From assembly GCA_003220495.1 (NCBI GenBank), contig QHSP01000026.1, positions 1 through 64,000 of the forward strand: a DNA stretch of 64,000 nt. Reading direction: 5' to 3'. The notes below the pieces were generated by a model. The model was not told where the DNA came from. It saw only the letters and a program-made list of their open reading frames with translations, and did not search any database. This stretch comes from Candidatus Rokuibacteriota bacterium (GTDB lineage: Bacteria > Methylomirabilota > Methylomirabilia > Rokubacteriales > CSP1-6). The position numbers and the translations under genes are program-made. Shown piece by piece: positions 26,983-34,008 of the stretch (the stretch's first letter is position 1; every line of letters begins with the position of its first letter).

Positions 26983-27009
26983 GCCCGATGCACTGACGAG
27001 CCGCCGCAT

Positions 27010-27315
27010 TCACTCCTCCGAAGCGACAGCAGCGAACCAGAAGGCGCCGGCAAGCAGCACGGTAGCGCACGCCACCGTGTATGCCAGCCGCGTGCCGTGC
27101 CACAAGCTGTCCAACCACTGCCTGAGCTGCGCCGCGAGCACGTTCGCTTTTCCGCCATAGAGCTCCATGGCGCGCAAATACTGCTTCGACTCCTCGGGGG
27201 TGTATCCGAGGGCGTCACGGTCCGAGGACGCGGCGTTCAGGTAGATCCAGATCGCGCTCGCGAGGCCGACGATCAAGATCGCTGCGGCGGCGAACCGAAG
27301 ACGTCGGCCCACCAA
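27010..27315 (-). CDS. Small two-helix membrane protein downstream of the pseudokinase
   Basis: The 101-residue product has two hydrophobic segments (about residues 7-27 and 79-97) flanking a soluble helical loop (TPEESKQYLRAMELYGGKANVL). The reading begins at TTG 27315 or GTG 27312, 4 bp after the stop of the kinase-like gene, and GAAGGA lies about 15 bases upstream. No family is recognised. Close spacing makes it part of the pseudokinase transcript and thus of the divergent motor-like locus. Confidence 0.6.
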   Translation of the reverse strand: MVGRRLRFAAAAILIVGLASAIWIYLNAASSDRDALGYTPEESKQYLRAMELYGGKANVLAAQLRQWLDSLWHGTRLAYTVACATVLLAGAFWFAAVASEE

Positions 27316-27319
27316 ACGG

Positions 27320-28726
27320 TCAGCGACGGTCCTTCAGCAGCCAGTCGATGACGGCACCGCCGTCCCCCACTTCGGTGTCGCTCCGTTCCATTCTTGCCGG
27401 TCGCTCGGCCGAGGTCCGGCGCTCGATTGCAACCTCGGACTCGGCCGGAGCGCGGGACTCGACGGCAGGGCGCGGAGGACTGCTAAGCGCGGAAGGCGCA
27501 ATAGCCGGCTGCCGAACGATCACCGGCACGGGAACCGGATTGGCGACCGCCGGAACCAGCGGTTCCACCATTGATTCGTCCTTGACGGCGCGGGATTCGG
27601 GGGGCCTCCAGCTCGGCTCGCGAGTGACCGATGCTGGCGCAGGCACAGCCGATGGCCGTGGAAGGTCCCGGTGGACCGGAACGGCGGTGACGGGAGGCGG
27701 CGTGACTTCGCCGTGGAAGCGCGAGACGATTCGATCGAGCCCCGTGACCCAGACAACCGCCGCGATGAGGCCGGCGGTGGCGACGGCCGCCGTCATACGG
27801 AGGGTGAACGGGCGTCGGCGCCGGCGCACTCGTCGACGGGGGTTGCCTCGAACCTTCACGGAGCGCGGGCGAGACTCCGGTTCGGGCAGAACCGCCGTCG
27901 CGCCCCAGATATCGTTCACCATCACGCTGATGTCCGGGTAGCGACGCGCCGGTCGCGCTTCGAGTGCCGTCGTGATGATCCGCTGGATGGTCGGCGACAG
28001 AGGCGGCGTCGCGGCGAGGGCGCTCCCGGTCTGACCCGCCTTGCCTGCCGTCAACAGCTGCCGCAGCAGCATTCCCAGCGCGTACACGTCGGTCGCCTCG
28101 GTCGTTTCACCCCGCTCGACCTGTTCGGGCGCACGATACGCTTGGGCAAATGCGTCGCGCAGGCGAAGCCCGATCGGCGTGCAGTACGCCGCGGTCAGCT
28201 CGGCCCCCACGAGCCGGATTCGTTCGCCGTCGTTGACCATCAGCACCGAGTCGGGTCCGAGCTGACCGTGAACGAGCCGATTGTGATGAAGCGCCTCGAG
28301 CGCCTCCCCGACCCGGATGGCGACGCGCAGCGCGGTCGACACGTCGAGCGCACCGCCGGCATCGAGAACTTCACGGAGCGTGGCGCCCTCGACCCACTCG
28401 AGCGCGACGAAGCACTGGCCGGTGTCGGTCACGCCGCATTCGTACACCCGCTGCACGCCGCGCAGGGCGTGGGCCGCGACCGCGAGCGCGCTGGCCTGAT
28501 TCCGCACCGCGGCCACGAACCGCGCATCACGGGCGAACTCGTCTCGCACGACCTTGAGCGCGATCGATCGGCCGTGTCCGACGTGCTCGGCGCTGTACAG
28601 GACCACATCGCGGTTCACCGAGGAGACAGCGTTGACGCGGTAGCGCGACTGGACGACGGTGCCCGCGAGGGACAGGGAGAATTCGGGTGTGGCCGCCGCC
28701 GACAGTCGCTGAGCGCCGACCGTCAC
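27320..28726 (-). CDS. Membrane-anchored Ser/Thr pseudokinase
   Basis: The 468-residue product has an N-terminal protein-kinase-like fold, a basic stretch (about residues 297-306), one transmembrane helix (about 309-329) and a Pro-rich extracytoplasmic tail of about 140 residues. The ATP-site lysine is present (ALKV, K58) and the activation segment ends in YRAPEQ. The catalytic core is broken: HRDLKPxN reads HGQLGPDS (153-160), so Asp is Gln, Lys is Gly and Asn is Ser. DFG reads GAE (174-176), removing the Mg-binding Asp. The TDVYALGMLLRQLLT helix is intact. The architecture copies PknB-type receptors, but phosphotransfer should be impossible. It probably binds nucleotide or partners. It diverges from the motor-like operon. 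Confidence 0.82.
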   Translation of the reverse strand: MTVGAQRLSAAATPEFSLSLAGTVVQSRYRVNAVSSVNRDVVLYSAEHVGHGRSIALKVVRDEFARDARFVAAVRNQASALAVAAHALRGVQRVYECGVTDTGQCFVALEWVEGATLREVLDAGGALDVSTALRVAIRVGEALEALHHNRLVHGQLGPDSVLMVNDGERIRLVGAELTAAYCTPIGLRLRDAFAQAYRAPEQVERGETTEATDVYALGMLLRQLLTAGKAGQTGSALAATPPLSPTIQRIITTALEARPARRYPDISVMVNDIWGATAVLPEPESRPRSVKVRGNPRRRVRRRRRPFTLRMTAAVATAGLIAAVVWVTGLDRIVSRFHGEVTPPPVTAVPVHRDLPRPSAVPAPASVTREPSWRPPESRAVKDESMVEPLVPAVANPVPVPVIVRQPAIAPSALSSPPRPAVESRAPAESEVAIERRTSAERPARMERSDTEVGDGGAVIDWLLKDRR

Positions 28727-28942
28727 GCGCTAGTCACCCGGCTGAATCCTCGCGGGGTCGGTCTCGACGCGGGCAACGAAGCGCGTCGAACCGCGCGCTG
28801 CCGAGCAGGATCGCTGCAGGTCTGGCGATCCAGAATCTCGTGCGCATACGTCCTTTTGCCGGTCGCCGCTCCGTCCTTGCAGGGCATCATCAGATCACTG
28901 CCCGCGGCCCGCGTCAAGAGCGGAATGCGAAAGAGAAAACAC

Positions 28943-28971
28943 TTGCCGAATTCCGAATGATGTCCTAAATC
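28943..28971 (+). promoter_or_regulatory. Candidate promoter for the motor-like operon
   Basis: TTGCCG (28943-28948), 17 bases, TAAATC (28966-28971) in the only A+T-rich part of the 315-bp divergent interval. The match is moderate. It would give a leader of roughly 65 nt before the ATG at 29042. Confidence 0.38.
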
Positions 28972-29041
28972 TAAACCACCCCGGGGAAGCTCGGGCCCAA
29001 CAGTGCGTACCGAAGAGACCCTGACCGCAGGAGCCCCCGTA

Positions 29042-30517
29042 ATGCAGAAGCTCGTGGAGATGGCGCGTCGGACACTCGATGTCGATCAGAAGGCGGCCGA
29101 CGCGGCCCGTCACGACAATCCCAAGACGTTGAGCGCCGCGCTCGATGTCACGGAATCGGAGATTTGCGCGCACTTCATCGCTCTGGCTCGACAGCGCAGA
29201 GAACGCTGCGACGTGACCAAGGGCCGGCTGCAGCTCGACCGTAAGGCGACGGCGGCGAAGATCGACGTCGAGCAAACACGAGATTCCTTCGCACGCTTGC
29301 TCACGGCCGTCGAACCGAGCCTCGAAAAGCTCAGATCGGACCACGCGGCGGCGCTCTATCAGGCCAAGGAGAACGAGGCCCGAGCCCTCAAGCATCTCCG
29401 ATGGTTCCAGCAGAAGCACGGCCTGCATTATCGGGCCGCGTCGTATCCCCAGTCCCCGTTCTACCACTTCGCCATCGTGGCCGCCCTGGCCCTGGTCGAA
29501 TGGGTTTCGCTCGCGGCGTTCTACGCCGAGGGCAGCGACTTCGGGCTGTTGGGTGGCGTTCTGATCGCCATGACGCTCTCGGTGGTCAACGTCAGCCTGG
29601 CGATTCTGTCGGGGGGCCTCCTTCGGTACGTGAACCACCGAAGCACCCGCCGGAAGGCGCTCGCATTCACCGGGGTCGCGTTTCTCTATACGTGCTTTCT
29701 CCTCGTGACGCTCGCCGCCGCTCACTATCGCGTGGCCACCAATGACATCGCGCAGTCGCAGCCGGAAATGTCGGCGCCAGGCACGAGCGCGTTGCCGCCT
29801 CACATCGCCGCGGACTTCGATCAGTGGCGCGCGGCCAAACTGGCGTGGCAACGCTTCGCGCGGAACCCGGTCGGCTTCGAGGATGTCTTTTCCTGGATCC
29901 TGGTGATGCTCGCGGTCATATTCGGCATCTTCGCCTCGTACAAAGGCTACCGGATCGACGACCCCTACCCCGGCTATGGCGAGCTCGATCGCGAGCTCAA
30001 CGCGAGGCGGGCCCGCTACGAGGCGGTCAAGGCCGAGTACTGCCGCCTGGTCGATCAGGTCTTCGATCGAATCCTGGACGAACAGGCCCATCTCCTCTCG
30101 GACGTGAAGGCGAACATCGAATACTATGAGCAGCTCATCAGCCGGAGCGATGACCAGCGCCGAACGTTCGTCCATGAGGTCGCCGAGATCCAGGATGCGT
30201 GCAACATCCTGCTGAAGCGCTACCGACAGACCAACGCGCGCGTGCGAGTGTCCCCCGCGCCGTACTATTTCGGCAACAGCTTCACGTTCGAGGGCCATCT
30301 CGTGCGGCCGCCCGACGCGATCTCGGAGGACGAGGAGCGACTGTCCCGGTCCTACGAGAGCGCCATGAAAGACTTCAGCGAGATCGCTCGGCAGAACGAC
30401 GCGACGGTCCAGAATCTCCGGACCGCCGAAATTCGACGTCGCGACTATCACTTCAATAAGCTCGAGCGCGATGTCCGCGAACGGCTCATTCGCGAGGCGT
30501 GGGAGATCAAGAGCTGA
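29042..30517 (+). CDS. Four-helix membrane protein with cytoplasmic coiled coils, unknown family
   Basis: The 491-residue product starts at ATG 29042, chosen over GTG 29003 because GGAG sits 8 bases upstream. An N-terminal helical/coiled-coil domain (residues 1-135) precedes three membrane helices at about 140-161, 166-193 and 205-228. An extracytoplasmic segment of about 50 residues and a fourth helix (about 281-300, WILVMLAVIFGIFASYKGY) follow, then a C-terminal coiled coil of about 190 residues. There is a conspicuous YYFGNSFTFEGHL patch at about 403-415. No catalytic motif is visible. It is the first gene of a tightly packed operon with the VWA-like and MotA/MotB-like genes (4 bp to the next start), so it is probably a structural part of the same membrane complex. 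Confidence 0.75.
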   Translation: MQKLVEMARRTLDVDQKAADAARHDNPKTLSAALDVTESEICAHFIALARQRRERCDVTKGRLQLDRKATAAKIDVEQTRDSFARLLTAVEPSLEKLRSDHAAALYQAKENEARALKHLRWFQQKHGLHYRAASYPQSPFYHFAIVAALALVEWVSLAAFYAEGSDFGLLGGVLIAMTLSVVNVSLAILSGGLLRYVNHRSTRRKALAFTGVAFLYTCFLLVTLAAAHYRVATNDIAQSQPEMSAPGTSALPPHIAADFDQWRAAKLAWQRFARNPVGFEDVFSWILVMLAVIFGIFASYKGYRIDDPYPGYGELDRELNARRARYEAVKAEYCRLVDQVFDRILDEQAHLLSDVKANIEYYEQLISRSDDQRRTFVHEVAEIQDACNILLKRYRQTNARVRVSPAPYYFGNSFTFEGHLVRPPDAISEDEERLSRSYESAMKDFSEIARQNDATVQNLRTAEIRRRDYHFNKLERDVRERLIREAWEIKS

Positions 30518-30521
30518 CGCT

Positions 30522-31340
30522 GTGCCGTTGAGCAGTTTGGATCGGCGGGGCATCGTTATTCTGGGTGGCATTGGCGCCTTCGCGGTCGTATTGCTGGCGA
30601 CCGTCGTCGGGGTCACGTGGACCCGCCCCATCATCGGGCCCGACAACTGTGTCTACCGGGACAAGCGATTCCTCGGCCGGGCAACGACCGACCAGACCGT
30701 GATCCTCGTCGACCAGTCGGAGGCCTTGACCGAGACTCATCGGAGATTCGCCCTCAACTTCGTCAAGGACTACGTCGCCGACGACTCGAAATTCGCCGTC
30801 CGCTCGCGGATCGCGTTGTTCACGTTCAGCAAGGTGACCTTCGAATCTCGGAACGGCTCGGGGCTGCGCCCGAGCTCGGACCTATGCCGGCCGCCCTCGC
30901 GCGGGAACGACCTGTATGAAAACAATCGGAAGATCACGAAGGACTTCTACCAGCGATTTCTGATCCCGGTCACCGCGGCGCTCGAAGAAAGCCTCACGAC
31001 CGAGGTCGGGGAGCAATCGCCGATTCTCGAGACGCTGCAGCTCATTTCGCGCTCGCAGGAGATCGACGACGGCGGCCGTAAGACCCTGATTCTCGTCTCG
31101 GACATGCTTCAGCACACCGGGGCGTTCAATCACTATGGGCCGCGTCGCGGCTACGAGGACTTTTGGCGCTCGGGATTCGCCGCCGACGTGAAGGCGGACT
31201 TCCGGGACTGGAACGTCATCGTCATCTATCTCCGGCGTTATCACGATCGCCAGCTGCAGCACGCCGCGCATATCGACTTCTGGCAGCGCTATTTCCACGA
31301 GGCCGGCGCGAAGATCACTCGCTGGGCCGGGGTCGACTGA
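30522..31340 (+). CDS. Membrane-anchored VWA-like protein
   Basis: The 272-residue product starts at GTG, 4 bp after the preceding stop. One N-terminal membrane helix (about residues 11-33) is followed by a Rossmann-like domain. Strand 1 is TVILVDQSEALT (59-70), a degenerate MIDAS motif: Asp64 and Ser66 are present, but the second Ser is Ala. A later strand KTLILVSDMLQHTG (188-200) holds the other conserved Asp. The spacing resembles von Willebrand factor A domains, which bind metal and protein ligands. The domain should face the periplasm. It may link the motor subunits to a partner. Family recognition is from motifs only. Confidence 0.7.
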   Translation: MPLSSLDRRGIVILGGIGAFAVVLLATVVGVTWTRPIIGPDNCVYRDKRFLGRATTDQTVILVDQSEALTETHRRFALNFVKDYVADDSKFAVRSRIALFTFSKVTFESRNGSGLRPSSDLCRPPSRGNDLYENNRKITKDFYQRFLIPVTAALEESLTTEVGEQSPILETLQLISRSQEIDDGGRKTLILVSDMLQHTGAFNHYGPRRGYEDFWRSGFAADVKADFRDWNVIVIYLRRYHDRQLQHAAHIDFWQRYFHEAGAKITRWAGVD

Positions 31341-31342
31341 GC

Positions 31343-33037
31343 ATGGTGACGCGCCTCGTGGCCAGTCTGCCCTCCACGTTCCTCGGCTTCATCGCCGTCG
31401 GGGTCGGGGTGATTTTGACGTTCAGCTGGTCCTCTCGGGGCACCCCGGGCGCGCTACGGCACTGGACGATGACGGGCCTCGTCGTGGGGCTGATGGTCGT
31501 CTACGGAGTCCTCCTGTGGATCAGGTCGAGGACGACGGACGCCTCCGAAGCCGATGGGGAGACCTTCTATTATCTGGGTTTCATCTACACGCTCGCGACT
31601 CTGGTCGCGACGTTTGCGCCGCTGCTCAATTCGGCGGAGCGTCCGGAAAGCCGACAGGTGTTGGGGTTCTTTGGCCTCGGCCTCATTACGACGTTTGTCG
31701 GCCTGGCGGGGCGCATCGTCTTCGCCCAGACGGCGCCCGGAGCACTCGCAAGGCCAGAGGATGACGCGCGTCGACTGGGAGACGCCTATGCGGAAGCGGC
31801 GCGCGCCATCGAGAGGAGCACGGTTCGAATCGTGCATGCTCAGCAGCGCGCCGAAGGACACCTGAGCGAGTCATATTCCGGTGCGGTCGAGGCGATTCGC
31901 ATCCTGTCGGGTCGCGTCACGCAGCAATTCGACTCGATGAGCGCTCAGGTGTTGAAACAGTTCGCGGCGGTGATCGAACGCGTCGGCGGAGACGCCGAAT
32001 CCGCCTTCGCCGAGGTCCGCAATCGCGCGGCCCGGGACATCGACGCCGCGTCTCGCCAGGCGGCGAAGACTCACGACATGGCCAGGGAGCAGTTCGAGAG
32101 CCTCACGGTCGGGACGAGCAGTGCGGTTCGCACCGTGACGGAACAAGCCGTCCAGGACGTCACCCGGGTCGCACGAGAATCGGCCGCGGAGCTCAGCGAG
32201 TTTCTCCGTCGCACGAACGGCACTGTGGAGACCACCCTCCAGCAATTCGAGGCACGTCTCGGGGCGTTTCGATTGCCACCCGAGGACATCAACGAGAAGC
32301 TCCTGAGGGTCCTGACGGAGCTGGCCGAGCGCGCCGACCTGCTGCGGCGTACGACCGCGAGCGTGGGCGCTGCGTACAGCGAGCTCGAGGGCACCCTGGC
32401 CACCGCGGTCAACGGCGCACGAGACGGGAGCCGGGCGTTCAGTGCCCTGGCCGTCTCGGCAGACGCGGCCACATCGGCGGTCACGTCGGTGAAGACGAAC
32501 GTCGAACAATTCGCGACGCACCTGAACCAGATCGGCGAGGCGACGGCGGGCCTGAAACAGTTGCCTCAAGAGGCGGCGACCATCATCGCCACGCTCGGCG
32601 ACCTGCGGGCGAACCTCGGGGACGCCAACCGCGCATGGGCGGCGGTGGCCGGCGTGACCGACGGGGCGAGCAAATCGATGGCAAGAGCCGGAGCGGCATT
32701 GTCGGCGTTCGAGCAAGGGGCGCGTGCGGCAGAGCAGTCGGTGCTCAACTGGAGCGGCGGCTTGATGAAAGCCGGTGTTGGCCTGCACGCGCTGACCGAC
32801 ATCACGGAGCGGGCCGTGCGGCTTGGTCAGGAGGCCGTCGCCACCCAGGTCCAGCTGTCCAGGCAGATCTCCGGGCCTCTGGCCGATCAGTTGCGCCAAC
32901 ACAGTGAGGCGGCCGGCGCGCTGGCGAATCGGCTCCAGGAGGACCTCCGCGCGTCGGAAGAGGCCGTGAGAAAAGTCCATCATCATCTCATCGATGCCTC
33001 TCGCTTCATTCTGAGCAAGGTCGAATACCGCCGGTGA
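31343..33037 (+). CDS. MotA/TolQ/ExbB-like channel subunit with very long helical tail (ZorA-like)
   Basis: The 564-residue product starts at ATG, 2 bp after the previous stop. Four membrane helices lie at about 11-29, 43-60, 75-95 and 106-128. Helices 3 and 4 carry the MotA/ExbB-style pattern: YYLGFIYTLATLVATF corresponds to the LGLLGTVxGM helix and GLGLITTFVGLAGRIVF to the TT-GL helix lining the ion path. The remaining roughly 430 residues are Ala/Glu/Gln-rich with few prolines and almost continuous helix or coiled coil (SVRTVTEQAVQDVTRVA), resembling the long cytoplasmic tail of ZorA. The next gene overlaps by 4 bp. It is inferred to form an ion-driven stator or motor with that partner. 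Confidence 0.76.
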   Translation: MVTRLVASLPSTFLGFIAVGVGVILTFSWSSRGTPGALRHWTMTGLVVGLMVVYGVLLWIRSRTTDASEADGETFYYLGFIYTLATLVATFAPLLNSAERPESRQVLGFFGLGLITTFVGLAGRIVFAQTAPGALARPEDDARRLGDAYAEAARAIERSTVRIVHAQQRAEGHLSESYSGAVEAIRILSGRVTQQFDSMSAQVLKQFAAVIERVGGDAESAFAEVRNRAARDIDAASRQAAKTHDMAREQFESLTVGTSSAVRTVTEQAVQDVTRVARESAAELSEFLRRTNGTVETTLQQFEARLGAFRLPPEDINEKLLRVLTELAERADLLRRTTASVGAAYSELEGTLATAVNGARDGSRAFSALAVSADAATSAVTSVKTNVEQFATHLNQIGEATAGLKQLPQEAATIIATLGDLRANLGDANRAWAAVAGVTDGASKSMARAGAALSAFEQGARAAEQSVLNWSGGLMKAGVGLHALTDITERAVRLGQEAVATQVQLSRQISGPLADQLRQHSEAAGALANRLQEDLRASEEAVRKVHHHLIDASRFILSKVEYRR

Positions 33038-33693
33038 TCCGGAGGAACCGACTTGCCCGGCACCGCGACATCGCGCTCACCACGCTCATCGATCTGCTCG
33101 TCCAGATCATTTTCGTGTTCACCCTCATCCTGATTTCCGCCGACGTGATGGGGAATGAGTCGCACGAGCGGGGCTGGGTGACGCCCGAGGCGTGGAAAAC
33201 GTTGATCAGCATCTTCGACATCGATCCCCGGAGCCTGCGCGACCCGGGCGCCCAGGTCACGGAGATCAAGGGCAAGTACGAGAAGCTGAAAGACGATCTG
33301 CAGGCCTGTGACGCCAAAACCGGCGCGTGCGAGAAACAAGCGGGCAGAGGGCCGGGTAACGCTCCATGCCGAGATGCGGCCGGGGTCGAAATGGTCGTGG
33401 CCGACGCGACGATCGACCAGGAAGGACGGATTGTCGTCGCGCTGGGCCGCCACGCTCGAGAGCTCCAAAGTGGTCAGCCGCTCAGCGCCAAGGCGCTCGG
33501 TGTGCCGCTTTCCGTCGAGCAGTTTGGATCACTGTTCCGGTCGTGGCGCGAGCACGGCCTGGCGCGTCAGCCTGCGTGCGCCTTCAAGGCCGAGGTCAGT
33601 TACGATGCACGCGCCAGGGCCGGCGACTACGAGCCGGCACGCCGGGCAATCGCCAACTACTTCACCCTGTCGGCGCCGCCGAAGCGCTTCTGA
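33034..33693 (+). CDS. MotB/ExbD-like partner subunit (ZorB-like, no OmpA domain seen)
   Basis: The 219-residue product starts at a GTG overlapping the channel subunit stop (GTGA). A short basic cytoplasmic N-terminus (RRNRLARHRDIA) precedes one transmembrane helix (about 14-36) containing a single buried acidic residue, Asp20, in TTLIDLLVQIIFVFTLILI. This is the ion-carrying Asp expected in MotB/ExbD/ZorB. The periplasmic part has a short helix, a Cys-containing low-complexity linker (QACDAKTGACEKQ) and a C-terminal alpha/beta module (RIVVALGRHARELQSGQPLS, ACAFKAEVSYDARA). I do not see the peptidoglycan-binding OmpA motif of MotB or ZorB. The order of the gene pair matches motAB, exbBD and zorAB. 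Confidence 0.76.
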   Translation: MIRRNRLARHRDIALTTLIDLLVQIIFVFTLILISADVMGNESHERGWVTPEAWKTLISIFDIDPRSLRDPGAQVTEIKGKYEKLKDDLQACDAKTGACEKQAGRGPGNAPCRDAAGVEMVVADATIDQEGRIVVALGRHARELQSGQPLSAKALGVPLSVEQFGSLFRSWREHGLARQPACAFKAEVSYDARARAGDYEPARRAIANYFTLSAPPKRF

Positions 33694-33705
33694 GGCCTTG
33701 ATCGC

Positions 33706-33969
33706 GTGGCGCTGAAGACACACCGGGATCTCGCCGATCAGCTATCTGCGTCGCTGGGCGCTCTCGACGCCGCCATCCGGACGCGGTTGCCGGAGCTGGG
33801 CAGGCGGCAAACCAGGCGGCGACTGGAGACAGCTCGAAGCGACAAAGGGCTCCGCGGCGCCGTGGTGGCAGCCCTTCGCTGGTTCACCGGCTCAGCGGGG
33901 TCTCAGCCGACGGTTCCGCGTGCGCGCTCCGCTCACGCGAGATCGCGAACCCGGCGCGGCACTCCTTAG
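33706..33969 (+). CDS. Small basic protein at the end of the motor-like operon (uncertain)
   Basis: An 87-codon frame starts at GTG 33706, 12 bp after the MotB-like stop. The first 60 residues look like protein (LADQLSASLGALDAAIRTRL, LRGAVVAALRWFTG). The last 25 are Arg/Ser/Pro-rich and may be spurious. The stop codon overlaps the start of an 18-bp tandem repeat. It may be a real small subunit or simply an open frame in G+C-rich DNA. Confidence 0.42.
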   Translation: MALKTHRDLADQLSASLGALDAAIRTRLPELGRRQTRRRLETARSDKGLRGAVVAALRWFTGSAGSQPTVPRARSAHARSRTRRGTP

Positions 33970-34003
33970 CTTCTGCCCGAACGCGAGCTTCTGCCCGAAC
34001 GCG
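33968..34003. repeat. Perfect tandem duplication, 2 x 18 bp
   Basis: AGCTTCTGCCCGAACGCG occurs twice head to tail (33968-33985 and 33986-34003). It fills the interval between the stop of the small operon-terminal frame and the stop of the opposing alcohol dehydrogenase gene. Confidence 0.9.
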
Positions 34004-34008
34004 CCGGC

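Follow-up and report, generated by a model that had tools for sequence, protein, structure and literature searches.

Among known immune systems, Zorya is the principal one to rely on a rotary ion motor; it consists of ZorAB together with ZorCD, ZorE or ZorFG. It is thought to sense perturbation of the envelope at phage entry, with ZorB gripping the peptidoglycan and ion flow turning ZorA; a ring of Ser/Thr residues surrounds an Asp of ZorB, and both this Asp and the ZorA tail are required for defence (PMC11890865). Membrane-tethered vWA proteins encoded beside TolQ-like motors have been proposed to act as force transducers; these carry either an SHLS/His motif, or an acidic pore helix in the absence of a TolR/ExbD/MotB gene (PMC12204202).

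We analysed a stretch of 64,000 nucleotides (the window) from a contig of Candidatus Rokuibacteriota, in which four plus-strand genes, A (29042–30517), B (30522–31340), C (31343–33037) and D (33034–33693), are followed by a small open reading frame, with spacings of 4, 2, −4 and 12 bp. The start of A is placed at ATG 29042, since its orthologues open with MQKL or MMQR, and GTG 29003 lies upstream; B starts at GTG 30522, C at 31343 and D at 33034. The reading frames, coordinates, order, spacings, helix counts and helical tail described in an initial annotation of this DNA were all found again. We propose, with a probability of about 0.6, that 27320–33693, which includes a pseudokinase gene besides A to D, encodes an inner-membrane ion motor of the ZorAB/MotAB kind that would serve as an optional envelope guard against phage or foreign DNA. 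Of the components of this proposal, a ZorAB-like motor is quite likely, and a defensive role somewhat favoured by the genomic settings described below.

As in Zorya, a motor-like subunit with a long helical tail precedes a one-helix partner with an acidic transmembrane (TM) residue, the plasmid versions have a ZorB-type OmpA domain, the distribution is sporadic and defence genes occur nearby. Unlike Zorya, the cassette lacks genes for ZorC to ZorG: the corresponding PADLOC models matched neither the products of the block nor the genes scanned in the S. fredii copy, in agreement with the earlier statement that ZorC/D/E are missing nearby. It has instead two extra core genes, A (a 4-TM coiled coil) and B (vWA-like), and its accessory gene encodes a pseudokinase or a secreted SNase. 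In addition, ZorA models miss the membrane part of C, and the D protein of the window has no OmpA domain. Because the effector genes are absent and the ZorA models match only the tail, the cassette is not Zorya by membership; it is probably a variant of the ZorAB-type motors whose conserved set of partners is new.

The cassette shares with MotAB, ExbBD and TolQR the two-subunit layout, a Thr pair in TM3 and TM4 and an acidic residue in the partner helix, but differs from them in lacking PF01618 and PF02472 matches and flagellar, TonB or TolA genes, and in the long tail and short TM2–TM3 loop of C. The pair appears ZorAB-like, and neither flagellar nor Ton/Tol, as had been annotated. With the vWA force transducers (PMC12204202) it has in common a vWA protein that is anchored in the inner membrane and whose gene lies next to that of a motor subunit, whereas the helix of B is plain, D is separate and A is always present. 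SNIPE (PD-Lambda-1), which adjoins the S. fredii copy, is likewise a membrane-level nuclease defence at DNA entry, but is a single DUF4041/GIY-YIG protein facing the cytoplasm, while the SNases of the cassette have apparent signal peptides. No description of the gene set was found in the open-licence papers to which our search was limited, which accords with the initial annotation.

An optional insert in one Rokubacterial genus

The system lies in an insert at 26986–34006, between a CMD-domain gene ending at about 26982 and an alcohol dehydrogenase gene from 34009. Congener G008 has an empty site, in which window position 26985 is directly joined to 34007; no convincing terminal repeats were found at the insert. 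G001 has only window 27318–33949 in common, with other surroundings, and the unit can therefore be narrowed to the pseudokinase and A, B, C and D, perhaps with the small reading frame. The cassette is present in 4 of 95 genomes of the phylum Methylomirabilota, all of one genus, in which 4 of 9 genomes have A; a profile including distant homologues did not find A in the other 86. The pseudokinase tracks the cassette, being present in all four genomes of the genus that bear it and in none of the five that do not. Given this distribution, the empty site and the different flanks in G001, the block is an optional, mobile insert. A scan of the genome collection with A of the window returned congeners only (Ca. 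Rokuibacteriota soil MAGs), and viral contigs and phage records contained no relatives of A. The Rokubacterial copies have metabolic genes around them and no flanking defence genes. The site between 26985 and 34007 is itself variable: it is empty in G008, occupied by another gene in G004 and in G007, and holds the system in G000 and G003. Gene C of G003 (L013:12344–13820) has a net 215-nt deletion and a frameshift in the tail, reflecting decay or an assembly error.

Among four genomes dN/dS was 0.12–0.20 for A–C, 0.15–0.27 for D and 0.33–0.43 for the pseudokinase, and this purifying selection indicates that the genes of the block are real. The 87-aa reading frame that ends the conserved block (33706–33969, plus strand) had a dN/dS of 0.39–0.76, and its start codon is absent in G006; its coding status is uncertain, and it is a weak candidate for a gene. 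A two-helix small protein (27010–27315, minus strand), originally counted as a member of the locus, lies within the insert and outside the conserved unit: it is missing beside the unit in G001 and occurs in G005 without the cassette (G005:C183:4258–4557).

The motor-like pair and its partner proteins

C has four N-terminal helices and a helical, presumably cytoplasmic, tail of ~430 residues. Its TM3 and TM4 (31547–31726, plus strand) each contain an invariant Thr, T83 and T117; in alignment with ZorA, T83 pairs with the Thr of the GTF motif and T116/T117 with the TS motif, making T83 and T117 putative positions of an ion-path ring. The TM module aligned in register with the ZorA profile (35% probability, score 32.2, while none of 60 shuffled decoys exceeded 25.5). 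The alignment is only suggestive, because family A, which is not considered a motor, also reached 30.1 in comparison with ZorA, within a stretch of 29 columns. PADLOC ZorA models matched the tail of C alone (2e-4 to 1e-5). C did not match MotA_ExbB (PF01618), and its comparisons with TolQ/ExbB and MotA profiles were not significant. Structure models of B and C were built from 3–4 close orthologues; with a pLDDT of 43, the AlphaFold model for C is too poor for comparison with motor folds, and we discarded its Foldseek matches as coiled-coil matching without meaning. In PDB profile searches the tail matched coiled coils of a generic kind, chemoreceptors among them, and a homologue of C bears the annotation of a methyl-accepting chemotaxis protein.

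D has one TM helix with a single acidic residue, D20 here and Glu in the alphaproteobacterial versions. The plasmid D proteins contain an OmpA domain (Pfam), and that of Paracoccus matches PADLOC ZorB2 (5.7e-25) and has E. coli ZorB2 among its nearest relatives outside the cassette. The comparison of D with the ZorB profile gave 97%. In the window's D no OmpA domain, no Pfam match (ExbD/TolR, PF02472, included) and no PADLOC ZorB match were detected. An ExbD-like identity of this protein, suggested by eye from TTLIDLLV, was not supported, as hhalign with 28 relatives and E. coli TolR/ExbD was not significant. The match of plasmid D to ZorB and, suggestively, the in-register alignment of C with ZorA support the earlier description of an ion-motor-like pair with a long tail.

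B consists of one TM helix and a domain with the vWA-type order of strands and helices. Foldseek matched its model mostly to vWA/I domains (E ~4e-4 at a pLDDT of 40), in line with the initial annotation of a membrane-anchored VWA-like protein; the model thus predicts a vWA-like fold. No match was found in Pfam, and comparison with a home-made vWA profile gave no significant result. The MIDAS is degenerate (DQSEA here; DxTDP, DxSDA and similar in plasmid versions), so that B lacks a complete one (DxSxS). Two Cys residues are invariant in 14 of 14 B proteins and the N-terminus is positively charged, which makes it likely that the domain is periplasmic and disulfide-bonded. The helix, IVILGGIGAFAVVLLATVVGV, has neither an SHLS/His motif nor an acidic residue.

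A is the most conserved part of the system, with 27 invariant residues that include those in the GLLGG and DPYPG motifs. All 11 members examined have four hydrophobic helices, flanked by coiled coils on both sides. Positive charge precedes TM1 and lies between TM2 and TM3, a pattern that would place both coiled coils in the cytoplasm. With no Pfam, NCBIfam or PADLOC family matching it, A is to be regarded as a new family.

The divergent gene (27320–28726, minus strand) encodes a protein with a Pkinase fold (Pfam Pkinase, 4.9e-14), one TM helix and a Pro-rich periplasmic part. The catalytic HRD and DFG residues of active Ser/Thr kinases are absent in all four orthologues, where HRD is replaced by HGQ and DFG by VGA or VGV, confirming the protein as the pseudokinase it was first taken for. 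PADLOC matches to PD-T4-6 and similar systems were dismissed as evidence of defence, as they are generic to the kinase fold. The periplasmic end carries a conserved C-terminal IDWLLKD after a variable Pro-rich linker, and its conservation beyond that linker suggests a binding peptide.

Alphaproteobacterial plasmid copies and their neighbours

In a tblastn search of plasmids, 24 records gave a match to A and 21 to B; they come from Rhizobium, Sinorhizobium, Paracoccus, Microvirga and Tistrella. The plasmid homologues of the core are 20–26% identical to the Rokubacterial proteins, and the order A-B-C-D, with short spacings or overlaps, is kept in all copies examined. Across both phyla 21 residues of B and 19 of C are invariant, in addition to those of A, and Rokubacterial and plasmid profiles matched at 99.7% for B and 98.8% for C. 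For D no significant match between the two profiles was obtained; the periplasmic parts differ, being OmpA-type in plasmids. The linkage of the genes, claimed at the outset, is conserved for the core in plasmids and Rokubacterial orthologues alike, and A-B-C-D is an ancient unit spanning two phyla.

The accessory gene differs by lineage: a pseudokinase in Rokubacteria, a secreted SNase in most rhizobial copies. An SNase gene adjoins the cassette in 14 of 24 plasmid records. In Rhizobium and S. fredii it lies downstream in convergent orientation; in R. ruizarguesonis, BG4 and 05631 it is upstream and in Microvirga downstream, in both cases on the strand of the cassette; none lies beside the examined Paracoccus, Tistrella, Sinorhizobium B11 and Rokubacterial copies. 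The cassette-linked SNases have in common what looks like a signal peptide, and the segment CPIKGN...GERWFC...AGWR is conserved at their C-terminal end. Such SNases (E <= 1e-20) occur at only 85 places in 72,556 plasmids, so that their link to the cassette is not due to chance.

Recognised defence systems lie within 10 kb of the cassette in 4 of ~11 distinct plasmid settings. The S. fredii copy adjoins SNIPE/PD-Lambda-1 (5.8e-170), GajA/GajB (Gabija; 1e-227 and 2e-176) lie ~7 kb from the cassette of Sinorhizobium 05631, GmrSD/HEC-06 (1.9e-79), 'beta' and 'cll' lie upstream of that of BG4, and the Tistrella copy is immediately followed by AbiEi/AbiEii. The Paracoccus, Microvirga and Sinorhizobium B11 copies have no flanking defence genes. 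The background was gauged from just two 50-kb control stretches, one with no obvious defence genes and one with a BREX locus, and is accordingly not zero. Over half of the copies found on plasmids are on conjugative or mobilizable replicons and several on non-mobilizable ones; some are near ArdC, relaxase or HipA genes. The small plasmid pSS05631d of Sinorhizobium CCBAU 05631 carries BREX, Gabija and the cassette together (L115, L127).

Possible modes of action

The initial annotation left the complex as either defensive or mechanical; the plasmid neighbourhoods appear to favour defence, and we keep the mechanical reading as a rival. In the guard that we propose, whose logic would follow that of Zorya, five C and two D subunits would form the ion channel and rotor, while the vWA domain of B, like D, could read the periplasm or the peptidoglycan, B being an additional periplasmic sensor. 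Envelope damage at phage entry might open the ion path and turn C against D; the tail of C and the coiled coils of A would then pass the motion into the cytoplasm, A acting as a membrane adaptor. The effector or regulator would act last, as a periplasmic nuclease in rhizobia. The Rokubacterial pseudokinase is more likely to be a sensor or a brake. A bolder reading, less likely than not, is a new class of immunity powered by a motor, in which a rotary ZorAB-like complex would sense the periplasm through the vWA protein, drive A as a four-helix coiled-coil adaptor and switch on interchangeable effectors or regulators; one of these would be a periplasmic nuclease cutting phage DNA ahead of its entry into the cytoplasm, and in Rokubacteria the pseudokinase would gate the motor. 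No kinase gene accompanies the alphaproteobacterial cassettes, so the gating by a pseudokinase put forward earlier may apply to the Rokubacterial lineage and does not extend to plasmids.

The defence neighbours and the SNase, both of which recur, are less readily explained by a non-defensive force-transducing machine, in which ion flow would pull or rotate the vWA and peptidoglycan-binding parts in the periplasm, whether to maintain the envelope, to sense surfaces, to adhere or to secrete. The patchy, insert-like distribution of the cassette and its carriage on plasmids are also unlike those of a housekeeping system of the envelope. The layout of B matches that of the vWA proteins proposed as force transducers beside TolQ-like motors (PMC12204202), and the copies of Rokubacteria, Paracoccus and Microvirga, being without defence neighbours, would suit such a machine; B, however, has no acidic TM residue and D is separate, unlike both families described there. 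Overall we consider such a machine rather unlikely. The frequency of conjugative or mobilizable replicons, the occasional proximity of ArdC, relaxase or HipA genes and the apparent signal peptides of the SNases would also suit a barrier to incoming plasmid or conjugative DNA, or a role in surface exclusion or plasmid stability, which would explain both the rhizobial plasmids and the secreted nuclease. The metabolic surroundings of the Rokubacterial copies and the several copies on non-mobilizable replicons speak against this, and we regard it as improbable.

The motor itself could be questioned, with A–D forming a static membrane scaffold or a chemoreceptor-like array, C contributing a helical receptor tail and the pseudokinase acting as signalling partner. 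The chemoreceptors among the generic coiled coils matched by the C tail, in PDB profiles as in low-confidence Foldseek searches, the chemotaxis annotation of its homologue and the missing PF01618 match are consistent with such an arrangement. It is nevertheless very improbable, as a D protein with MotB/ZorB features adjoins C in all copies, and the TM module of C, in register with ZorA, keeps the Thr pair.

If the locus does encode an ion-driven guard, it would be a second, widely dispersed cassette that combines a similar motor with other conserved partners, and such motors would constitute a reusable immune module. As the cassette is present in culturable rhizobia, the roles of motor, sensor and effector are directly testable, as is the way in which movement of the motor results in DNA damage. 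The S. fredii NXT3 plasmid carries, in the same region as the cassette, a second set of three genes (L029:2502–5935) without a motor gene or detectable sequence likeness to A or B. They encode a 427-aa coiled-coil multi-TM protein, a 407-aa vWA-like secreted protein and a 303-aa OmpA protein, a layout like that of A, B and D.
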